The notes under the pieces were generated by a model, which ran no database searches, was not told the origin of the DNA, and worked only from the letters and a program-made list of their open reading frames with translations. Shown piece after piece: positions 36,900 through 46,479 of a stretch of 64,000 nt of DNA. Source of the DNA: Robiginitomaculum sp. (GTDB lineage: Bacteria > Pseudomonadota > Alphaproteobacteria > Caulobacterales > Maricaulaceae). A program made the position numbers and the translations under genes. The DNA lies in the NCBI GenBank assembly GCA_015485155.1, contig WFUF01000003.1, positions 124,001 to 188,000 on the forward strand, given 5' to 3'. The number at the start of each line of letters is the position of its first letter. Within the stretch, counting starts at the first letter, position 1.

Positions 36900-37517
36900 T
36901 TATGGTTTGTGGCGCTGGCGCAAGACCTTAATCACATCCTCCAATTGCTGATTTTGGTGGCGCAGCAAGGTCATGAGGTGAAAAAGCAAATCTGCTGCTT
37001 CTTCGGTTAGTTTGGCAGGATCACTACCCATGGCAGCCAGAGCAACCTCCACCCCCTCTTCACCAACCTTTTGCGCGGCGCGCTCCACAGGCCCGGATAA
37101 CAGTTTGGCGGTATAGCTTCCAGCTTGATCATGCTGGCGGCGCTCTTCAATGATCTGATCAAGTTCAAACAGCCAGGAAAAACCCGGTTCCGGGGCGCTG
37201 GCAAAACAGGTTTTATCACCCTTATGGCAAGTTGGCCCGGCAGGGCTCGCCAGCACTAAAAGCGTATCACCATCACAATCAGCACTAATGGAAACCAGCT
37301 CAAGCACATTGCCGCTGGTTTCGCCCTTTTGCCAAAGCTGCTGTCGTGAACGACTAAAGAATGTAACCTTTCCGGTTTGCAAGCTGGCCTGCAAGGCATC
37401 TTGATTCATATAAGCCAGCATCAATACCTCGCCGGTTTTTGAATCTTGCACAATTGCCGGTATCAGGCCTTCACCCTTTTGCCAGTCAAGCTCTTGTATA
37501 TTATTGGTCAGGCTCAC
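36900..37517 (-). CDS. hisIE: fused phosphoribosyl-AMP cyclohydrolase/phosphoribosyl-ATP pyrophosphatase
   Basis: Bifunctional enzyme of 205 residues for steps two and three of histidine synthesis. The N-terminal HisI domain (1-115) has [24 protein letters not shown] and the metal Cys/Asp set in DCDGDTLLV and GPTCHKG. The C-terminal HisE domain (118-205) has [16 protein letters not shown] with its acidic metal-binding residues and a helical end. The fusion is usual in enterics, xanthomonads and Bacteroidetes, whereas most alphaproteobacteria keep hisI and hisE apart. It is the last gene of the operon, with an ATGA overlap to hisF. Confidence 0.96.
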
Positions 37518-38281
37518 AATCTCACCTCGATTTTCTGTTGACGCAAATAGGCTTTTAGATCTGGTATATTGATGACAGACTTGTGAAAAACACTGGCTGC
37601 CAGAGCGCCATTTACATCTGTCTTGGCAAATACATCATAAAAATCATCCATGCAGCCAGCACCGCCGGATGCAATTAACGGCACCGCGCACAATTTACGC
37701 ATTACTGCCAATTGTTTCAAATCATAGCCGTTTCTTCTCCCATCTTCATTCATGCAATTAAGAACTATTTCACCAGCACCGCGCTGTTGAACCTGTTGCA
37801 GCCAGTCGGTGGTTTTCCATCTGGTGGAAATCATGGCATCGGGATCCCCGGTCAGGGCTTTGACCTGCCAGTCATCACCATCCCAAAAACTGTCAATTCC
37901 CACCACAATGCACTGACTGCCAAATTTATCCACCAGAGCATCAATCAAATCAGGGTTTAACAGGGCCGGGGAATTTACAGATATTTTGTCAGCACCCGCC
38001 TCCAGAATAAACTGAGCTGCTTCAATACTGTTGATGCCACCAGCCACGGTAAAGGGAATATCCAGAACCTTAGCCACTCTTGATATCCAGCTGACATCAA
38101 CCTGACGCTGTTCCGGACTGGCTGTAATGTCATAAAACACCAGTTCATCAGCACCAAAACGGGCATAATTTTGTGCCAGCTCAACAATATCACCCACCAC
38201 CTGATGATCGGCAAAGCGCACGCCCTTAACCACCTCGCCATCTTTTACATCGAGACAGGGAATTATCCGGCGGGCCAACAT
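37514..38281 (-). CDS. hisF: imidazole glycerol phosphate synthase, cyclase subunit
   Basis: TIM-barrel cyclase of 255 residues that uses ammonia from HisH to close the imidazole ring. The catalytic Asp11 is in [11 protein letters not shown] and the second Asp is in [10 protein letters not shown] near 130. The phosphate-binding loops include VAGGINS and LIASGGAG. It starts 19 bases inside hisA and ends overlapping hisIE. Confidence 0.98.
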
Positions 38282-38994
38282 GCCAACGCCTCCTCTAATG
38301 TAAATTTTTTCTCATACAGGGCCTTGCCGATGATCACACCATCAGCGCCACAATCCCGTGCGGCGGCAATATCATCCAATGAACCAATACCACCGGAAGC
38401 CAATATCTGAAAATTGCTGAACTTGCGTTTTACCTGCCTATAGAGTTCCGTATTACTGCCAGAGAGAACTCCATCGCGGCCAATATCGGTAATCAGCAAA
38501 TTGGCATCCCATTCTTTGTATTGCTCAAGCAAATCCCACAAATTGGTGGTTGAAGCCTGCTGCCATCCTGAAATGGCCGGAATTGGCAAGCCGTTTTCAA
38601 GACGCACATCCAGTGCCAGAACCAGATTGTCTGCTCCGAATTTGGCTATCCAGCTTTTGACAGTTTGCGGATCACTCACAGCCAAGGATCCGATAATCAC
38701 CCGCGCAACCCCACAGGTCAGCAAGGTTTCAATCTGATCAGGGCTGCGAATCCCGCCCCCCGCCTGCACTGTTAAGCCGGTTTCTCTGGCTATTTTGCAG
38801 ATCAAACCGGTCTGGCAGGCGGCACCCTCTCTGGCGCCATCAAGGTCAACAATGTGCAAATGATGAGCCCCGGCATCGGCAAACCGGCAGGCCCTGTCAA
38901 CAGGGTCATCATCATACAGGCTTTGCCGGGCAAAATCGCCCTGATACAGGCGCACGCACTGGCCATTCATTAAGTCAATAGCTGGCCATATCAT
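38263..38994 (-). CDS. hisA: phosphoribosylformimino-AICAR-phosphate isomerase
   Basis: Half-barrel homologue of HisF, 243 residues, performing the Amadori rearrangement before the HisFH step. Catalytic Asp7 lies in [15 protein letters not shown] and the partner Asp in [10 protein letters not shown] near 128; phosphate loops are VQAGGGIRS and [15 protein letters not shown] overlap with hisH and a 19-base overlap with hisF show tight translational coupling. Confidence 0.98.
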
Positions 38995-39587
38995 GGCTTT
39001 GCCTCCAGAAAATTCTGTAAAATCCTGGCGCCAGCTTCGCCGGAACGCTCAGGGTGAAACTGACATGCATAAAGGTTATCGCGGCGTATGATCGCCGAAA
39101 AATCCAGTCCGTAACTGGTGCTGGCCAATGTGTTTGGCCCGGTTCTGGCAGCAAAGGAATGGACAAAATAGACATATGAATCAGGCCTTACTCCAGCCAG
39201 AAACGGATCATCCTGAACAATCCTTAGCTGATTCCAGCCCATATGCGGCACCGGGCCATCAGAGACTGGCAGCGGCACCACCTCATCCGGGATCAGGCCC
39301 AGACAGGCAGTGTCACCTTCGGCACTGTGCAAAAACAGTAATTGCATACCCAGACAAATACCCAGCAATGGGCGCTGATAGTCCAAAAACACATGCTCCA
39401 GCTCTTTTGCCCGCAAAGCAGCCATTCCTGCCTGTGCAGAACCGACACCGGGAAGGACAAGCCTTTCGGCCTCGGAAATGGTCTTGGCATCTGAACTTAC
39501 CCTGACTCTGACGCCCAGCCGGGCAAAGGCAAAGCGCACCGAAGCCACATTCGCCACACCAGTGTCAACAATTACCAGATCCATCAC
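38991..39587 (-). CDS. hisH: imidazole glycerol phosphate synthase, glutaminase subunit
   Basis: Class I glutamine amidotransferase of 198 residues supplying ammonia to HisF. Nucleophile Cys78 is in GICLGMQ, with the His178/Glu180 pair in FHPERSG. The oxyanion strand is LPGVGSA. Two adjacent ATG codons are possible; the first overlaps the hisCB stop as ATGA. Confidence 0.97.
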   Translation of the reverse strand: MMDLVIVDTGVANVASVRFAFARLGVRVRVSSDAKTISEAERLVLPGVGSAQAGMAALRAKELEHVFLDYQRPLLGICLGMQLLFLHSAEGDTACLGLIPDEVVPLPVSDGPVPHMGWNQLRIVQDDPFLAGVRPDSYVYFVHSFAARTGPNTLASTSYGLDFSAIIRRDNLYACQFHPERSGEAGARILQNFLEAKP

Positions 39588-41221
39588 AGCACCCCTTTGC
39601 TAGATGGAATTTGCGAGCCTTCACGGCGCAGTGCCGGCCGCAATGCCCGGCCAACACCCTTAAAAATCACCTCTATTAGGTGGTGGGTATTATTGCCATC
39701 GGCCCGAATGTGAATGGCGGCACCAAGATGTTGAGCAAAGCTCTCAAAAAAGTGCTGTACCATTTGCCCTTCAAAACCACCGGCACCAGCATCATCAATA
39801 TCAGCCTCAAAGCGCAAGGCCGGGCGACCAGACAGATCTATGACAATTTGCGCCTGTGCCTCATCCATTGGCAGGACGAAACCATAACGGCCAATACCGG
39901 CACGATCCCCAAGCGCCTTACGCAAAGCCGTTCCCAGCACAATAGCGCAGTCTTCAATGGTGTGGTGGGCATCAATGTGCAGATCACCACTGGCATTCAT
40001 CACCAGCGAAAAATCTCCATGCCGGGCTATCTGCTCGAGCATATGATCAAAAAAACCAATACCAGTGGCAATTTGAACCGGCTCACTATCATCAAGTGCG
40101 ACCATGGCACTTATGCTGGTTTCACGGGTTTGGCGGCTAACCGCCGAACTGCGCGTGGGCAAGGAGGGCTTTTGCAAAACACCAAAGGCGGACAATAACG
40201 CATTGTTTTGCTGTGCTGAGCCAATACTGATCCGCACCATGCCTGCGCCAAGAGCCGAAAAATCTCTAATGTGAATGGCGCTGGCCCGAAGCCGCTGGAG
40301 AATGTCGGTTTTAACCTGTAATTGCGCCAGTAAAAAATTAGCAGATGACGGCCAGATACGGCGCACAAACGAACTCTTGCCAAGGGCCGTAAACACCCGC
40401 TCTCGTTCGTCTTTGATCTGGTTGATCCGCTGATTTATAATGCTCATATTCACCGGTGACAAAGCCCGTAAAGCCTCATCAACCACCGGCACCGGCAGCG
40501 GATATGGGGGCAATACTTTGCGCAATAGCTCTATCACCGGAGCATTGGCAAGCACGCAGCCCAGCCGGATGCCAGCCAGTGAATAAGCTTTGGACAGAGT
40601 TCGCAACACCACCAGATTGGGAAAATCGGACAAGGCGCTAACTACTGAGTCCGCCCCGGAAAATTCTATATAGGCCTCATCTACCACCAGCAACTGATCA
40701 GGACATGATGCCGCCAGCTCAAACACAGTGTTACCTGGTATCAGACTACCAACAGGATTGCCCGGACTACACAAAAATATCAACTTTACCGGATTGGCTT
40801 TAGCCGCTGCCGCAATGGCTTTGGGGAGAATTTTGTAATCATCATCCAGCGTTACCTCGATTACCTCAGCACCTTGAATACGGGCCGCCACTGCATACAG
40901 GCCGAAGGTGGGCGGTGTTATCAGCACCGCATCCCTGCCGGCCCTGCAGCTAGCACGCACCAGCAGGTCAATCGCCTCATCGGCGCCACGGCTCATTAAT
41001 AATTGCTCCGGATTAACACCATATAATGCTGCAAGGCGCTGCGCCAAAGCTGTTGGTTGTTGCTCTGGATAACGATTATTGTTTCTGCTACCGGACAGAG
41101 GCGGCCACGGATTTTCATTTGCATCAAGCACAATTGCATCAGCACTGGCCCCGCCCCGGGCCTTGTAAGGGACAAGAGCTGCAATTTCTGGTCTGGCAAT
41201 TTTGTCAATCAGGCTATTCAT
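39584..41221 (-). CDS. hisCB: fused histidinol-phosphate aminotransferase/imidazoleglycerol-phosphate dehydratase
   Basis: One uninterrupted 545-residue frame with two complete enzymes. Residues 1-350 are HisC: LDANENPWPP, CSPGNPVG, VDEAYIEF and the PLP Lys211 in RTLSKAYSLAGIRLG. After a linker of about 15 residues, residues 357-545 are HisB: TRETSISAMV, FFDHMLEQIARHG, metal-binding DAHHTIEDCA at 417-426 and NTHHLIEVIFKG, ending IPSSKGVL. The start at 41221 overlaps hisD by eight bases. In E. coli HisB is fused to a phosphatase instead; no histidinol-phosphate phosphatase lies in this operon. The two activities are steps 6 and 7 of the pathway. Confidence 0.95.
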   Translation of the reverse strand: MNSLIDKIARPEIAALVPYKARGGASADAIVLDANENPWPPLSGSRNNNRYPEQQPTALAQRLAALYGVNPEQLLMSRGADEAIDLLVRASCRAGRDAVLITPPTFGLYAVAARIQGAEVIEVTLDDDYKILPKAIAAAAKANPVKLIFLCSPGNPVGSLIPGNTVFELAASCPDQLLVVDEAYIEFSGADSVVSALSDFPNLVVLRTLSKAYSLAGIRLGCVLANAPVIELLRKVLPPYPLPVPVVDEALRALSPVNMSIINQRINQIKDERERVFTALGKSSFVRRIWPSSANFLLAQLQVKTDILQRLRASAIHIRDFSALGAGMVRISIGSAQQNNALLSAFGVLQKPSLPTRSSAVSRQTRETSISAMVALDDSEPVQIATGIGFFDHMLEQIARHGDFSLVMNASGDLHIDAHHTIEDCAIVLGTALRKALGDRAGIGRYGFVLPMDEAQAQIVIDLSGRPALRFEADIDDAGAGGFEGQMVQHFFESFAQHLGAAIHIRADGNNTHHLIEVIFKGVGRALRPALRREGSQIPSSKGVL

Positions 41222-42512
41222 TGGACTGCCCCAGCCTGATGGCAACAGCCCTGGAATGGGCTGCCAGAGTTTCCATCTGCGCCAGTTTCTGCACCACCGG
41301 CCCCAATGATCGTAAAGCGGTTTTTGATGCCTCTTGCACAGTGATGAACTTGATAAAGCTCTGCACCCCTAATCCGCTATAACTGCGCGCAGCCCCGGCG
41401 GTGGGCAGGACATGATTAGTGCCGCTGGCATAATCTCCCAAAGCCTCTGGAGTATAGGGGCCTAAGAAAACAGAACCTGCATTACGGATACCCCCAAGCA
41501 ATTTTCGTGGTGATCTGACCTGTATGATCAAATGCTCCGGCGCATACCGGTTCACCAGCTCCAGCATTTGCCGCTGATTGCCAACCTGTATCAAACGGGC
41601 ATTCTTTAAGGATTCTTCCGCTATTGCCTTACGCGGAAGGGCCTGTAACTGCTGTAACACAGCTCGTTCAACGGACTTTATGGTCTGGGCGCTGTCACTT
41701 AGCAAAATCACCTGCGCCACCGGATCATGTTCGGCCTGACTCAAAAGATCTGCAGCCACCCAGTCTGCATTGGCAAAACTATCTGCCAGCACCATTACTT
41801 CGCTCGGACCGGCCGGAAGATCAATGGACGGGCCGCCAGGCCATTGGCAGATTTGTGCCTTGGCCTCATTAACCCATTTATTGCCCGGGCCAACGATTTT
41901 GTTAACTGGATCAATACTGTTTGTACCAAATCCCATAGCGGCAATGGCCTGCGCACCACCAACACAGTAAACTTCATCAACCTGACACAAATATCCCGCA
42001 GCCAGTACTGTCGGGTGAATATTGCCAGTTGCTGATGGCGGGCTGGCCACTGCAATTCTCCTGACACCCGCCAGTCGCGCTGGAACAGCCGCCATCAGCA
42101 ATGATGAAAACAATGGCGCATTACCGCCCGGCGCATAAATCCCAACACTATCAATAGGCAAGGCAAGGCGCTCGCAAACAAGGCCTGGCTCCACCTCTAC
42201 CCGGATTCTGCCCGGTGCCTGCGCCGTATGAAATTTGCGAATATTGGTAACAGCCCGGCGCATGGCATCTTGCTCGGCACTGCCAAGCCTGTTCCATGCG
42301 GTCTCCATTTCTGAGCGATTTACTTGCAGCTTGTTTGCAGGCGCTGTGTCAAAGAGCCTGGAAAAGTTCAATACCGCCTCATCACCACCAAGACGCACCT
42401 GCTCAAGAATATCAGCAACCTGATTGCGCACGGCCGTGTCACCGGCCACCGGGCGGCGCAAGGCGGCTTCCTGTTCGGATAGCTGTAAATTGTTCCAGTC
42501 AAGAATCTGCAT
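41214..42512 (-). CDS. hisD: histidinol dehydrogenase
   Basis: 432-residue NAD- and zinc-dependent enzyme that makes the last two oxidations to histidine. The signatures are VGIYAPGGNAPLFSSLLMAA, KIVGPGNKWVNEAK, GPSEVMVLADSFANADWVA and LLSQAEHDP with zinc-ligand His. The C-terminal His of the family is in YASGTNHVLPT. It starts two bases after the hisG stop. Confidence 0.98.
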   Translation of the reverse strand: MQILDWNNLQLSEQEAALRRPVAGDTAVRNQVADILEQVRLGGDEAVLNFSRLFDTAPANKLQVNRSEMETAWNRLGSAEQDAMRRAVTNIRKFHTAQAPGRIRVEVEPGLVCERLALPIDSVGIYAPGGNAPLFSSLLMAAVPARLAGVRRIAVASPPSATGNIHPTVLAAGYLCQVDEVYCVGGAQAIAAMGFGTNSIDPVNKIVGPGNKWVNEAKAQICQWPGGPSIDLPAGPSEVMVLADSFANADWVAADLLSQAEHDPVAQVILLSDSAQTIKSVERAVLQQLQALPRKAIAEESLKNARLIQVGNQRQMLELVNRYAPEHLIIQVRSPRKLLGGIRNAGSVFLGPYTPEALGDYASGTNHVLPTAGAARSYSGLGVQSFIKFITVQEASKTALRSLGPVVQKLAQMETLAAHSRAVAIRLGQSNE

Positions 42513-42514
42513 GT

Positions 42515-43399
42515 CTAACCCATCATTTTTTCAATGGGCAGAACCAGAATTGACTGCGCGCCCCGCGCTTCCAATTCTTCCAGCGTATCCCAGAATATTG
42601 TTTCGCGACAAACCGCGTGAATCGCCATCTGATCTTCCCGGCCCGCCAGCGGTATAATAGTTGGCGCATCGGCACCTGGTAGCAATTCCGTAATTTCACC
42701 GATTGCTGACTTGGGAGCATTAAGCATGATATATTTGGTGGCACGGCTTGCTATTACTCCATCCATACGCCGTAGCAGGCGCCGCAGCAAAGCCTCACGC
42801 TCATCGTCCCATACATTATTGGAGCGCACTAATACTGCTTCGCTTTTCATTACTGTTGCAAAGTCCACCAGACCATTAGCGGCCAAAGTGGCACCCGATG
42901 AAACCAGATCACAAATTGCATCTGCCAGTTCAAGAGCCGGAGCAATTTCCACGGCGCCCTTTAACGGAACACAATCGGCAATTATATCATTTTCCTTTAG
43001 ATATTTTGCCAAAATCTGCGGGTAGGAAGTAGCAATTCTTGCCCCACGCAAATCCTCAACGCCACTGATTTTGCTGTCTTTTGGTGCCGCCAGCTTCAAG
43101 GTGCAAAATGAAAAGCCCAGCGAACGAACTGTTTGCAACCCCTGATCCTCAGGCGATGCCAGAGCCTCCTCCAGCAAAACATTTTCACCGGCAATGCCAA
43201 GGTCGCACACACCCTTGGCCACGAGCGAAGGAATATCGTCATCACGTACAAATAACAGCTCAATCGGCAAACCACGCGCCCGGCATGTCAAGGCGCCGGG
43301 ATTGCGAAAAATACCAAGACCAGATTGCTCCAGCAATTTGATACTGCCCTCGGCCAAACGGCCCTTTTTTTGTAATGCAATCCGCAAGCTCTTGCTCAT
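42515..43399 (-). CDS. hisG: ATP phosphoribosyltransferase, long form
   Basis: First and regulated step of histidine synthesis. At 294 residues it is the long HisG, with an ACT-like regulatory domain at about 220-294 (LLPGADAPTIIPLAG to VLPIEKMMG), so feedback by histidine needs no HisZ. The catalytic part has LRIALQKKGRLAEG, DLGIAGENVLLE and the PRPP loop LVSSGATLAANGL. Alphaproteobacteria commonly have the short form with HisZ, making this copy unusual. The start overlaps the regulator gene by four bases. Confidence 0.96.
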   Translation of the reverse strand: MSKSLRIALQKKGRLAEGSIKLLEQSGLGIFRNPGALTCRARGLPIELLFVRDDDIPSLVAKGVCDLGIAGENVLLEEALASPEDQGLQTVRSLGFSFCTLKLAAPKDSKISGVEDLRGARIATSYPQILAKYLKENDIIADCVPLKGAVEIAPALELADAICDLVSSGATLAANGLVDFATVMKSEAVLVRSNNVWDDEREALLRRLLRRMDGVIASRATKYIMLNAPKSAIGEITELLPGADAPTIIPLAGREDQMAIHAVCRETIFWDTLEELEARGAQSILVLPIEKMMG

Positions 43400-43719
43400 C
43401 GTCCCGCCTCCCGCTGCAGGGCAATGCGATAGCCTTGATATGCTTCTTCTTTCAAAAACCTGGCAACCCGTCCAACCGTTGTCGTGCTGGCTCCGGTTTT
43501 TTCTGCAATTTCACGATAGGAAAGCTCACCCTGATCCAGTAATTGCGCAACCTGCCAGCGCGCAGCCAGTGCCCGCAACTCTGCCGGGGTGCACAGATCT
43601 GTCAAAAACCGCAAAAGCTCATCCTCAGATTGCAGGCTGCGAATAGCCTGCAACAAGCTTTCTGTATCGGATCCTGGAGCTGCACCAGATGTTTGATTGG
43701 GGTTTTTCGGGGTTGTCAT
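43396..43719 (-). CDS. TrpR-like regulator (YerC/YecD family), likely his repressor
   Basis: A 107-residue TrpR-superfamily protein. The conserved part is DELLRFLTDLCTPAELRALA, then RWQVAQLLDQGELSYREIA and KTGASTTTVGRVARFL as the helix-turn-helix. In xanthomonads a member called HisR sits at the head of the his operon and controls it; here the position is the same. An 18-base palindrome lies 17 bases upstream of the ATG. I infer autoregulation and repression of the operon with histidine as likely corepressor, none of which is visible directly. Confidence 0.85.
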   Translation of the reverse strand: MTTPKNPNQTSGAAPGSDTESLLQAIRSLQSEDELLRFLTDLCTPAELRALAARWQVAQLLDQGELSYREIAEKTGASTTTVGRVARFLKEEAYQGYRIALQREAGR

Positions 43720-43753: not shown

Positions 43754-43866
43754 ACACACAAGCACGATAACACAAGACTTATTTTGCCTTACTGGCCTTC
43801 GTACTGGACTTGGTGAAATCTCTGTGCTCATGAGATGTTTTTTCGGCTGTAATTTTGGAGCTTGCA

Positions 43867-46479
43867 ATGAACACCACAAATAATCCTGCGCCATGGGTGG
43901 TCATGAAATTTGGAGGCACCAGTGTTTCAACTAAAAAAAACTGGCAGACTATCAAAATGCTGGCACAAAATGCCATGTCTGGTGGCAATCGGGTATTGGT
44001 TGTGCATTCAGCCTTGTCGCAAGTCTCTAACCGGCTGGAGCGGGCAATTGCCGCAGCTATAAAAAACGAAACCGGCCACATGCTTGATGAGATAAGTCAG
44101 GTGCATATTGATCTGGCAGCACAATTGGGTGTGGATGGGCAAAGCCTGATTGCGCCTTCCATACAGCGACTGGGCAAATGGTTAAGCGGTATCGAAATGG
44201 TTGGCGAGGCCAGTCCACGCATCCGGGCCAGTATTATGGCCGAAGGTGAAATTATGGCTACCGCCTTGGGGGCGGCAAATTTACAAAAATCAGGACTAAA
44301 AACAATACTGCTTGATGCCAGAGAATTGCTGCATAGTGTTCCACAAAAAAACACCGCAGACAGCGCACAGTATTTATCTGCAATCTGTGCTGATGTTCCT
44401 GATGTCAAATTACAGCAAAGGCTCGATGAACTGGAGCCGGGAATTGTGCTGACCCAAGGCTTCATAGCCAGCAATTCCAATAATGAAACTGTTTTGCTGG
44501 GGCGTGGGGGATCCGATGTATCCAGCGCTCTGTTTGCCAGTAAATTACAGGCGAAACAGCTTGAAATATGGACTGATGTGCCCGGCATGTTCAGCACTGA
44601 TCCGCGGCTTAGCCCCTCGGCGCGATTGCTAAAAGATCTGTCCTATGAAGAAGCGGAGGAAATCGCATTGATGGGGGCAAAAGTGGTCCACCCACGCGCC
44701 CTGCCCCCGGCCCGGCGGGCACATATTCCAGTACTGGTAAAATGCACCCATACCCCGGAAGCACCGGGAACCAGAATCAGCAACAACCCCGCAGACACCC
44801 ATGCCCGGGTAAAGGCGATTACGGTTAAACAGGGACTCATTCTTGTCTCCATGACTTCTTCTGCCATGTGGGGAGAATCCGGGTTTTTAGCTAATGCTTT
44901 TGCCGCATTTGCCAAAAACAACCTGTCGATTGATCTGGTTTCAACCTCGCAAGCCAGTGTTACCGTATCACTTGATACAGGCCAAAACCCCGATGCCAGG
45001 GCATTGGCGCAATTGCAAGCTGAGCTTGAACCCTTGTGCCGGGTTAAAATTATAAAGAGCTGTGCCTCTGTCAGCGTGGTTGGCCGCGGTATTCGTACTA
45101 TTTTACACAAATTGACACCCGCACTGGAATTATTCCGCGAGCATCCGGTCAGGCTGGTAAGCCAGGCAGCCAATGATCTGAACTTTACGGTGGTAGTTGA
45201 TGGTGATCAGGCACAGAAACTGGCCAGAAGACTGCACGATGAACTTGTTGAGGTGGAGCCTGAAGACAAGGTTTTCGGCCCTCCATGGCAGGAGGCACAA
45301 GTAGAGACAAGCAAAAACACGCCTGGCAAAGCCCCGTGGTGGGTACAAAAGCGGGATGAATTATTGTCGATCAAGCCAAAACAGTCAGCCGCCTATATAT
45401 ATGATCTTGCAACCATCAAATCCCGCGCCCGATCACTGCTTTGCATATCTGCCATAAGCCGGGTGTTTTACGCGATGAAGGCTAATTCCAACCCGCAAGT
45501 GCTGCAAACCATTGCGGAACAAGGCATCGGGGTGGAATGTGTATCATTGTCAGAAATTGACCATGCACTTGCCAGTATTAACGGCCTTGACCCCAAAAAC
45601 ATCCTGTTTACGCCTAATTTTGCACCGCGCCATGAATACGAAGCCGCGATTAAGCGTAAAATACAGATAACTATTGATAATCTGCACCCATTGCAGAATT
45701 GGCCGGAAATTTTCGCAAACAGTGAAATTCTGCTGCGGGTTGATCCAAAACGCAGCCGGGGTCACCACCGCCATGTGCAAACTGCAGGTGCGCGTGCCAA
45801 ATTCGGAATCCCAATTCAGGATATGGCAAAGGCAAAAGAGCTGGCATTAGCCGCAAATGCGAAGATAATTGGCCTGCACGCCCATGCCGGAAGCGGTATT
45901 CTTGACCCCAATCACTGGCGGGACCTAGCTGAACTATTTGCCGGATTGGCCAAAGACTTTCCAGATGTGCGAATTTTCAATCTCGGAGGCGGGCTTGGAG
46001 TGCCCGACAATACCAGTGCCGCAAGTCTTGACCTGCAAAAACTTGATCAGAATCTGGCACTGGTGCGCGCCCAGTGCCCGGATATTGAGTTCTGGCTGGA
46101 GCCGGGGCGGTTTTTAGTAGCTGAGTCCGGGGTATTACTGGCAAGCGTTACCCAGACCAAAACCAAAGGCTCCGTAAAATATGCCGGTCTGGAAACCGGC
46201 ATGAACTCGCTGATAAGGCCGGCATTATACGGATCTCACCATGAATTGGTGAATTTAAGCCGCCTTTTTGAACAAGAGGATATTTCACCGGTTTCCATTG
46301 TTGGGCCAATTTGCGAATCTGCTGATATTTTGGGGGTTGATCGGCATTTACCGCCGACCCATGAAAATGACGTATTGCTGATTGCCAATGTCGGGGCCTA
46401 TGGCGCGGTAATGGGCAGCAGGTATAATCTGCGCGAACCAGCCACAGAGCTTACTCTGCCAGCTAAGACCACAAGCTAA
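43867..46479 (+). CDS. lysC-lysA: fused aspartate kinase/diaminopimelate decarboxylase
   Basis: One 870-residue chain with the first and last enzymes of lysine synthesis. Residues 1-465 are aspartate kinase: VMKFGGTSVS (Lys14), GRGGSDVSSALFA, and two ACT domains (MWGESGFLANAFAAFAKNN; VVGRGIRTILHKLTPALE). Residues from about 500 are the PLP decarboxylase: FYAMKANSNP with Lys538, HAHAGSGI, NLGGGLGVP near 706, EPGRFLV near 745, and CESADIL. GGAG lies before the ATG at 43867. The same fusion is known in Xanthomonas and Xylella and is rare in alphaproteobacteria. It is divergent from the his operon. Confidence 0.95.
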   Translation: MNTTNNPAPWVVMKFGGTSVSTKKNWQTIKMLAQNAMSGGNRVLVVHSALSQVSNRLERAIAAAIKNETGHMLDEISQVHIDLAAQLGVDGQSLIAPSIQRLGKWLSGIEMVGEASPRIRASIMAEGEIMATALGAANLQKSGLKTILLDARELLHSVPQKNTADSAQYLSAICADVPDVKLQQRLDELEPGIVLTQGFIASNSNNETVLLGRGGSDVSSALFASKLQAKQLEIWTDVPGMFSTDPRLSPSARLLKDLSYEEAEEIALMGAKVVHPRALPPARRAHIPVLVKCTHTPEAPGTRISNNPADTHARVKAITVKQGLILVSMTSSAMWGESGFLANAFAAFAKNNLSIDLVSTSQASVTVSLDTGQNPDARALAQLQAELEPLCRVKIIKSCASVSVVGRGIRTILHKLTPALELFREHPVRLVSQAANDLNFTVVVDGDQAQKLARRLHDELVEVEPEDKVFGPPWQEAQVETSKNTPGKAPWWVQKRDELLSIKPKQSAAYIYDLATIKSRARSLLCISAISRVFYAMKANSNPQVLQTIAEQGIGVECVSLSEIDHALASINGLDPKNILFTPNFAPRHEYEAAIKRKIQITIDNLHPLQNWPEIFANSEILLRVDPKRSRGHHRHVQTAGARAKFGIPIQDMAKAKELALAANAKIIGLHAHAGSGILDPNHWRDLAELFAGLAKDFPDVRIFNLGGGLGVPDNTSAASLDLQKLDQNLALVRAQCPDIEFWLEPGRFLVAESGVLLASVTQTKTKGSVKYAGLETGMNSLIRPALYGSHHELVNLSRLFEQEDISPVSIVGPICESADILGVDRHLPPTHENDVLLIANVGAYGAVMGSRYNLREPATELTLPAKTTS

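Follow-up and report, generated by a model that had tools for sequence, protein, structure and literature searches.

Histidine synthesis is a classic example in discussions of gene fusion and channelling. In a Robiginitomaculum sp., one reading frame of the histidine (his) operon carries both histidinol-phosphate aminotransferase (HisC) and imidazoleglycerol-phosphate dehydratase (IGPD), which raises the question of how the two came to be joined and what the join does for the cell. IGPD dehydrates imidazole-glycerol phosphate to imidazole-acetol phosphate, which HisC transaminates to histidinol phosphate. The stretch of DNA analysed here (the window; 64,000 nucleotides) comes from contig C3 in a genome of 2.39 Mb. 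The best explanation, to which we assign a probability of roughly 0.8, is that the HisN part of hisNB was lost from a his operon of gammaproteobacterial type and that hisC was joined to IGPD, giving a bifunctional enzyme.

The window holds a complete his operon on the minus strand, in the order TrpR-family regulator (which we take to be yerC-like), hisG, hisD, hisCB, hisH, hisA, hisF and hisIE (Table 1). Promoter-like sites number 11 against 7.6 expected, and terminator-like sites 8 against 9.1 expected. A gene for a bifunctional aspartate kinase/diaminopimelate decarboxylase of a known family (lysC-lysA; 43855-46479, plus strand; NF006515, 1155.6 bits vs 802) diverges from the operon. This gene adjoins the his operon in the window and in locus L036; in the gammaproteobacterial loci L093, L102 and L104 it lies at the opposite end.

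Table 1. Features of the his operon and of the fused gene in the window.
Feature	Position	Strand	Evidence and remarks
hisIE	36900..37517	-	PF01502 + PF01503
hisF	37514..38281	-	PF00977 + operon position
hisA	38263..38994	-	TIGR00007 249.1 bits, over cut-off
hisH	38991..39587	-	PF00117 + operon position; overlaps fusion stop by 4 bases
hisCB: fused histidinol-phosphate aminotransferase / imidazoleglycerol-phosphate dehydratase	39584..41221	-	545 aa, 58.5 kDa; ORF, Pfam, NCBIfam
IGPD part, residues 357-545; HHTIED (39950-39967), NTHH (39680-39691)	39587..40153	-	PF00475, NF002111
Junction, residues 351-356	40154..40171	-	Alignment; differs among relatives
HisC part, residues 1-350, PLP lysine K211 (codon 40589-40591)	40172..41221	-	TIGR01141 308.2 bits
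hisD	41214..42512	-	PF00815 518.9 bits; overlaps fusion start by 8 bases
hisG	42515..43399	-	PF01634 + PF08029
TrpR-family regulator, operon head	43396..43719	-	PF01371 87.5 bits; same slot in gammaproteobacterial operons

The fused gene reads on the minus strand from an ATG at 41221 to a stop codon at 39584-39586 and encodes 545 residues; an alternative TTG start at 41245 would give 553. The original prediction was of a complete HisC and a complete IGPD, with the catalytic lysine and metal-binding motifs in place and a short linker free of stops and frameshifts, and all of this was borne out. Pfam finds Aminotran_1_2 at residues 42-345 (166.8 bits), and the hisC equivalog of NCBIfam, TIGR01141, spans residues 10-346 at 308.2 bits, over its cut-off of 276.55. 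Similarly, the IGPD domain (PF00475) covers residues 386-527 (192.2 bits; cut-off 27), while the IGPD model NF002111 covers residues 356-545 (237.4; cut-off 231). Lys211 sits in a TLSK motif and, together with N155, D181, Y184, R219 and R330, forms what we take to be the active site of this fold type I HisC. HHTIED (residues 419-424) and NTHH (511-514), of the HHxxED and NxHH types, are presumably the metal-binding motifs of IGPD. The inter-domain stretch of ~6-10 residues contains no stop. Separate translation of IGPD from an internal start was considered and rejected, as no Shine-Dalgarno-like stretch was seen by eye before the possible starts at codons 343-373. The gene product is predicted to be a bifunctional enzyme in which steps 6 and 7 of histidine synthesis are joined covalently.

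An assembly or sequencing error that deleted a stop, named at the outset as something that would refute the fusion, can be dismissed with near certainty because an intact HisC-IGPD fusion occurs in 36 of a set of 99 genomes that includes the window's own, and the single-contig genome G018 is among the 36. Each of the 36 was confirmed as a stop-free frame on the DNA, that of G001 starting at residue 73, at a contig end. All fusions counted here were checked on the DNA with real stops, except in the lysine-less genus described below, where 20 of 92 were checked. The nearest relative, a Robiginitomaculum MAG (L036, apparently the same contig as G006), is 97% identical over the fusion, and identity to the window fusion drops to 47% among the 99 genomes. 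K211 is present in all 41 intact fusions examined, as are the IGPD metal motifs, and N155 in 38 of them. Of eight intact pairs, six yielded a dN/dS value for the HisC part, in the range 0.07-0.23 (two with saturated dS, one over only 103 residues); in the nearest pair it is 0.136, against 0.192 for IGPD. Judged from these ratios, purifying selection acts on both parts.

The fusion also occurs further afield. Outside Caulobacterales, DNA-confirmed full-length fusions were found in 8 of 385 sampled Alphaproteobacteria, plus one cut by a contig end (G185), in a search with a limit of 1e-70 and at most three candidates scored per genome, which may miss divergent copies. Histidinol dehydrogenase, found in 213 of 289 Alphaproteobacteria, offers a rough denominator only. 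Further one-frame fusions lie on named contigs of two unclassified alphaproteobacteria (L045 and L047, the latter apparently the same as G318), a MAG labelled Burkholderiales (L043), Bacteroidales (L046, L048, L060) and Gemmatimonadales (L049). K211 is kept in all four fusions from the last two groups, one of which has no match to the HHxxED pattern. The L043 fusion sits on a long branch; mislabelling, contamination and transfer are all candidate explanations for it. In a plasmid collection, among the matches listed (20 of 568), annotated records name separate hisC and/or HisB genes.

How does this architecture relate to known ones? It shares with HisNB (the enteric HisB; NF003937) a C-terminal IGPD, a second his enzyme at the N-terminus, the same operon slot and the phylogenetic type of IGPD. 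However, the N-terminal partner in HisNB is the DDDD-type histidinol-phosphate phosphatase HisN, which hisCB does not have: NF003937 scores 261.2 bits against a cut-off of 443, at model positions 165-355 only. The fusion joins two consecutive steps and differs from enteric HisN-HisB, as had been proposed. Other fused his enzymes include HisIE, which joins neighbouring steps, and eukaryotic HIS4 (hisIE-hisD) and HIS7 (hisHF); their partners differ from those seen here, and hisC is absent from the fused genes listed (PMC1963479). In its listing passages, this 2007 survey of his fusions names seven genes, D, B, N, I, E, F and H, without hisC, and describes fusions as often preceded by adjacent or overlapping genes (PMC1963479). 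The string 'hisC-hisB' occurs in two papers whose titles concern C. glutamicum (PMC6432763, PMC7696456). The expectation that the architecture was not a described one held in the open-licence literature, where no description of a HisC-IGPD or HisD-IGPD fusion was found; unnamed database entries may exist. We regard hisCB as a new architecture within the known class of his-gene fusions.

Both parts of the fusion are of gammaproteobacterial type. In the IGPD tree (120 of 143 domain sequences, with every second HisNB row and with six duplicate loci, L081 and L112 left out), all fused Caulobacterales IGPDs fall on the gammaproteobacterial HisNB side, apart from the monofunctional IGPDs that five Caulobacterales genomes carry (support 99). 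A long-branched monofunctional Clostridium IGPD (L065) also falls on the HisNB side. In the HisC tree (91 rows, with about every second gammaproteobacterial and Caulobacterales row kept), the fused HisCs group with gammaproteobacterial HisCs (97), apart from native alphaproteobacterial HisC (100); many deep branches are weakly supported in both trees. A smaller and more careful tree splits 59 intact and decayed sequences from 8 chosen gammaproteobacterial HisNB rows by a 96/90 branch. Gene order in the displayed Caulobacterales loci is that of the displayed gammaproteobacterial operons, with a yerC-like gene at the head of both, and an annotated Klebsiella record has the same order as the gammaproteobacterial loci. 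In gammaproteobacterial relatives read on the DNA, hisC is followed by a longer hisB frame, the two being separate and often overlapping. The distance from the hisC start to the hisH start is ~2.1-2.2 kb in gammaproteobacterial operons vs 1.6 kb in Caulobacterales. Taken together, the trees and the shared gene order point to the transfer of an operon from a gamma-type source, without HisN. Gammaproteobacteria have been described as donors of hisNB operons, in a source that lists one alphaproteobacterial HisNB (PMC1963479), and one alphaproteobacterium in our set (G203) retains a HisN-HisB frame with a separate gamma-like hisC. The original prediction was right that the fusion is real, complete and of consecutive steps; its presence in much of the surrounding clade and its apparent derivation from hisC and hisNB by loss of HisN had not been foreseen.

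The starting operon would have been yerC-hisG-hisD-hisC-hisNB-hisH-hisA-hisF-hisIE. An IMPase-type HisN would have made the phosphatase part of hisNB redundant; that part would have been lost, and hisC and the IGPD part would have come into one frame. The HisN model TIGR02067 matches all 99 genomes, so the lost phosphatase may be covered; 48 genomes pass its cut-off (275), including that of the window at 297.7 bits. An IMPase-type HisN (TIGR02067 type) has also been reported for Caulobacterales (PMC5516325). HisN cover is less certain in the 21 genomes that have no HisC over the cut-off besides the fused one: of these, G016 alone passes the TIGR02067 cut-off; most of the other 20 score 217-272 bits vs 275, and G008, G046 and G057 (two of them incomplete) match weakly.

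No HisC-HisN-HisB intermediate was seen among the loci read on the DNA, so these loci do not fix the order of HisN loss and joining. It is conceivable, if rather unlikely, that HisN was lost earlier and independently, and that loss of a stop codon then joined hisC to an adjacent, already HisN-less hisB of gamma type in a neutral event. In the window, neighbouring his genes share 4 and 8 bases, which means that a small shift of frame is enough to fuse them, and the fused parts decay readily; nevertheless, the fusion persists with both parts under apparent purifying selection. Unfused HisN-less HisB may exist, as in a Balneolia locus with only ~120 residues before IGPD (L109) or in Bacteroidales G623, where the IGPD match falls within a 213-aa frame (not read on the DNA) on a contig other than that of hisC. 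However, no adjacent pair of unfused hisC and HisN-less gamma-type hisB was recognised among the proteobacterial loci read.

Bacteroidales appear to provide a second origin. In 198 genomes of that order (assigned from the names of related records), any match to the query was found in 94, and HisC and IGPD share one frame in 5 (G479, L192-L195); G612, where the contig ends within the gene, may be a sixth. Three Bacteroidales fusions group in the HisC tree with the unfused HisC of L032 (95), apart from the proteobacterial clade (97). The simplest reading, although not strictly forced, is that the Bacteroidales fusion probably arose separately. In 14 further Bacteroidales loci with both genes complete (13 chosen for a suspicious frame, plus L197), hisC and hisNB are separate. 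A three-domain HisC-HisN-HisB was a candidate there, with predicted open frames of 726-761 aa, but was rejected since a stop codon parts hisC from hisNB in 13 of 13 loci; an open frame reported by a search is therefore no proof of fusion. Ten of these loci (L179-L183, L186, L187, L189-L191) have the two genes in-frame with one stop between them (two in L183) and are close to a three-domain fusion. Four contigs filed as viral (L032-L035) carry an IGPD with an N-terminal extension, with hisC also present in L032; they group with Bacteroidales sequences and are probably cellular DNA.

What has happened to the fusion since it formed? The 99 genomes comprise 36 with the intact fusion, 5 with a lysine-less form, 14 with a vestige, 4 with HisD-IGPD, 32 with a monofunctional IGPD (five read on the DNA) and 8 with no IGPD match (G003, G009, G012, G033, G036, G048, G050 and G056, several of them incomplete). 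G050, which is 99% complete and belongs to the genus of G023 and G039, has a HisC over the cut-off and is a possible histidine auxotroph or a case of an assembly gap. In 23 of the 99 genomes IGPD is intact but the HisC part is dead (Lys to Leu), reduced to a vestige or missing; four of the 23 have IGPD joined to HisD.

In the lysine-less form (8 of 8 loci; L134-L138, L050, L052, L053), SLSL stands in place of TLSK, Asn155 has been deleted and other residues replace Asn35-Glu36 of a DANENP-like motif, with the IGPD motifs intact. The genus that carries this form clusters with three named Brevundimonas loci in the IGPD tree. The lysine-less protein was matched in 92 of 101 genomes of the genus (the query's genome included), and in 84 of the 101 the match starts no later than residue 35 and runs to the end; 12 of these 84 near end-to-end matches show an internal stop, located before the HisC part in the three read. 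Of the 92, 20 were fetched (L200-L219), and the lysine is replaced by Leu in 15 (one, G752, apparently L050), Met in 2 and Ser in 1. One further case is intact with its lysine (G720, L211; apparently the same contig as L044 and placed as sister to the lysine-less clade), and in another (L212) the HisC part is broken between frames. An AlphaFold model of the lysine-less fusion, built from three sequences, was weak (pLDDT 62.6) and was left out of fold searches.

The vestige is an unrecognised N-terminal part of ~186-234 residues (the length depends on the chosen start) before IGPD, and Pfam finds IGPD alone in the two such proteins tested. A profile of the 14 vestige parts was compared with 100 HisCs and aligns with their C-terminal third, remaining collinear up to the HisC end, at a score of 41.2 (probability 69%, E 4.4e-5); with only the five closest intact HisCs the score is 36.5 (45%). 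In 100 column shuffles against HisC, the highest score was 20.3. Without its most divergent member the profile scores 36.7 (46%), and a second collinear segment then appears at HisC 59-89 (31.5, 19%). A HisN remnant was rejected as an explanation, with the vestige profile scoring 11.6 against HisN as a control vs 41.2 against HisC. The vestige is most likely the small domain of HisC with the PLP core gone, with moderate support from these profiles. Decayed parts have dN/dS values of 0.22-0.55 (4 lysine-less and 6 vestige pairs) vs 0.04-0.12 for their IGPD, which indicates selection that is relaxed but not neutral.

The HisD-IGPD form, in which HisC is gone from between HisD and IGPD, reads in one frame with complete Histidinol_dh and IGPD domains in L121 (1998-3920, minus strand) and L133 (4580-6481, minus strand), and L119 and L122 look alike in translation. 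L133 also has a native-type HisC beyond hisIE on the same stretch. Two origins of this form are possible, as G085 belongs to another family.

Where a second, native HisC is kept, the fused HisC would be free to decay, losing its active site, then most of the PLP domain and then the whole domain, although individual lineages need not have followed this order. All 23 genomes whose fused HisC is decayed or lost have a separate HisC that passes the TIGR01141 cut-off, vs 15 of 36 with an intact one (Fisher p 1.1e-6, which ignores relatedness). The tree needs ~3 changes (2-4 over bootstraps), with one independent pair on supported branches and three on all branches. A phylogeny-aware test of whether decay needs a second HisC was set aside, the 1-3 independent pairs being too few to reach significance. 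With so few clades and pairs, redundancy is therefore a consistent pattern and not a demonstrated cause. In 21 of the 36 intact-fusion genomes (17 of 29 at >=90% completeness) there is no other HisC over the cut-off, which leaves the fused one as the best candidate to serve as HisC in those cells.

The window's genome does have a separate HisC (G000:C25:74153-75205; 310.0 bits, over the TIGR01141 cut-off), and the fused HisC is therefore not proven to be needed there. This second gene (L163 4097-5221, plus strand) directly follows a chorismate mutase type II frame, a position that hints at an aromatic amino acid role. An unlikely alternative is that this gene is the real histidinol-phosphate aminotransferase and that the fused HisC of the window is dispensable and heading to decay. 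Such a course would match the second HisC and the universal presence of a separate HisC in genomes with decayed forms, but the catalytic residues are kept and dN/dS in the nearest pair is lower in the HisC part than in IGPD.

The predicted structure bears on what the intact fusion might gain. The full-chain AlphaFold model has a pLDDT of 86.4 and a pTM of 0.81, with residues 22-50, including active-site residues, mostly below 50. Its HisC part matches solved HisC structures, and all 50 fold matches listed are to the aminotransferase part. Relatives of IGPD with 24 chains exist in the PDB (7oj5, 6ezm), and since an N-terminal partner is tolerated in the enteric enzyme, a fusion particle of 24 chains is plausible; it would reach ~1.4 MDa if complete. 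The likely gain would be that the two enzymes stay at a 1:1 ratio and assemble together on the IGPD 24-mer, rather than obligatory channelling. That the fusion was made or is kept by selection for a metabolic channel, with an IGPD 24-mer carrying HisC dimers and imidazole-acetol phosphate passing directly between them, seems distinctly improbable, even though the domains catalyse consecutive steps, the architecture is conserved across genera and a second origin in Bacteroidales is likely. Junctions are variable, and HisD-IGPD joins arose at the same operon position although the HisD and IGPD steps are not consecutive in the histidine pathway. The decayed HisC parts beside an intact IGPD also argue against channelling as an essential function.

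Pseudoenzyme domains are known to survive within multi-domain proteins. The lysine-less HisC part, kept in frame in one related genus, resembles them, but here intact and further decayed forms are still present in close relatives. One tentative possibility, which we hold to be less probable than not, is that the fused HisC outlives catalysis as a non-catalytic piece that IGPD needs for folding, assembly, spacing or regulation, with the window enzyme as the intact ancestral stage. If true, this would trace a route from a bifunctional enzyme to a pseudoenzyme-scaffolded IGPD, with HisC retained through many species without its lysine or even most of its PLP domain.

In summary, natural variants within one order (intact, active site lost, vestige, domain gone, HisD-joined) provide a record of fused-domain decay. 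They make it testable whether fusing consecutive enzymes channels an intermediate or merely fixes a ratio, and why fused domains persist after their activity is lost. They also carry a warning for annotation: genes named hisB or hisC in these bacteria may be bifunctional, half-dead or fused to hisD.
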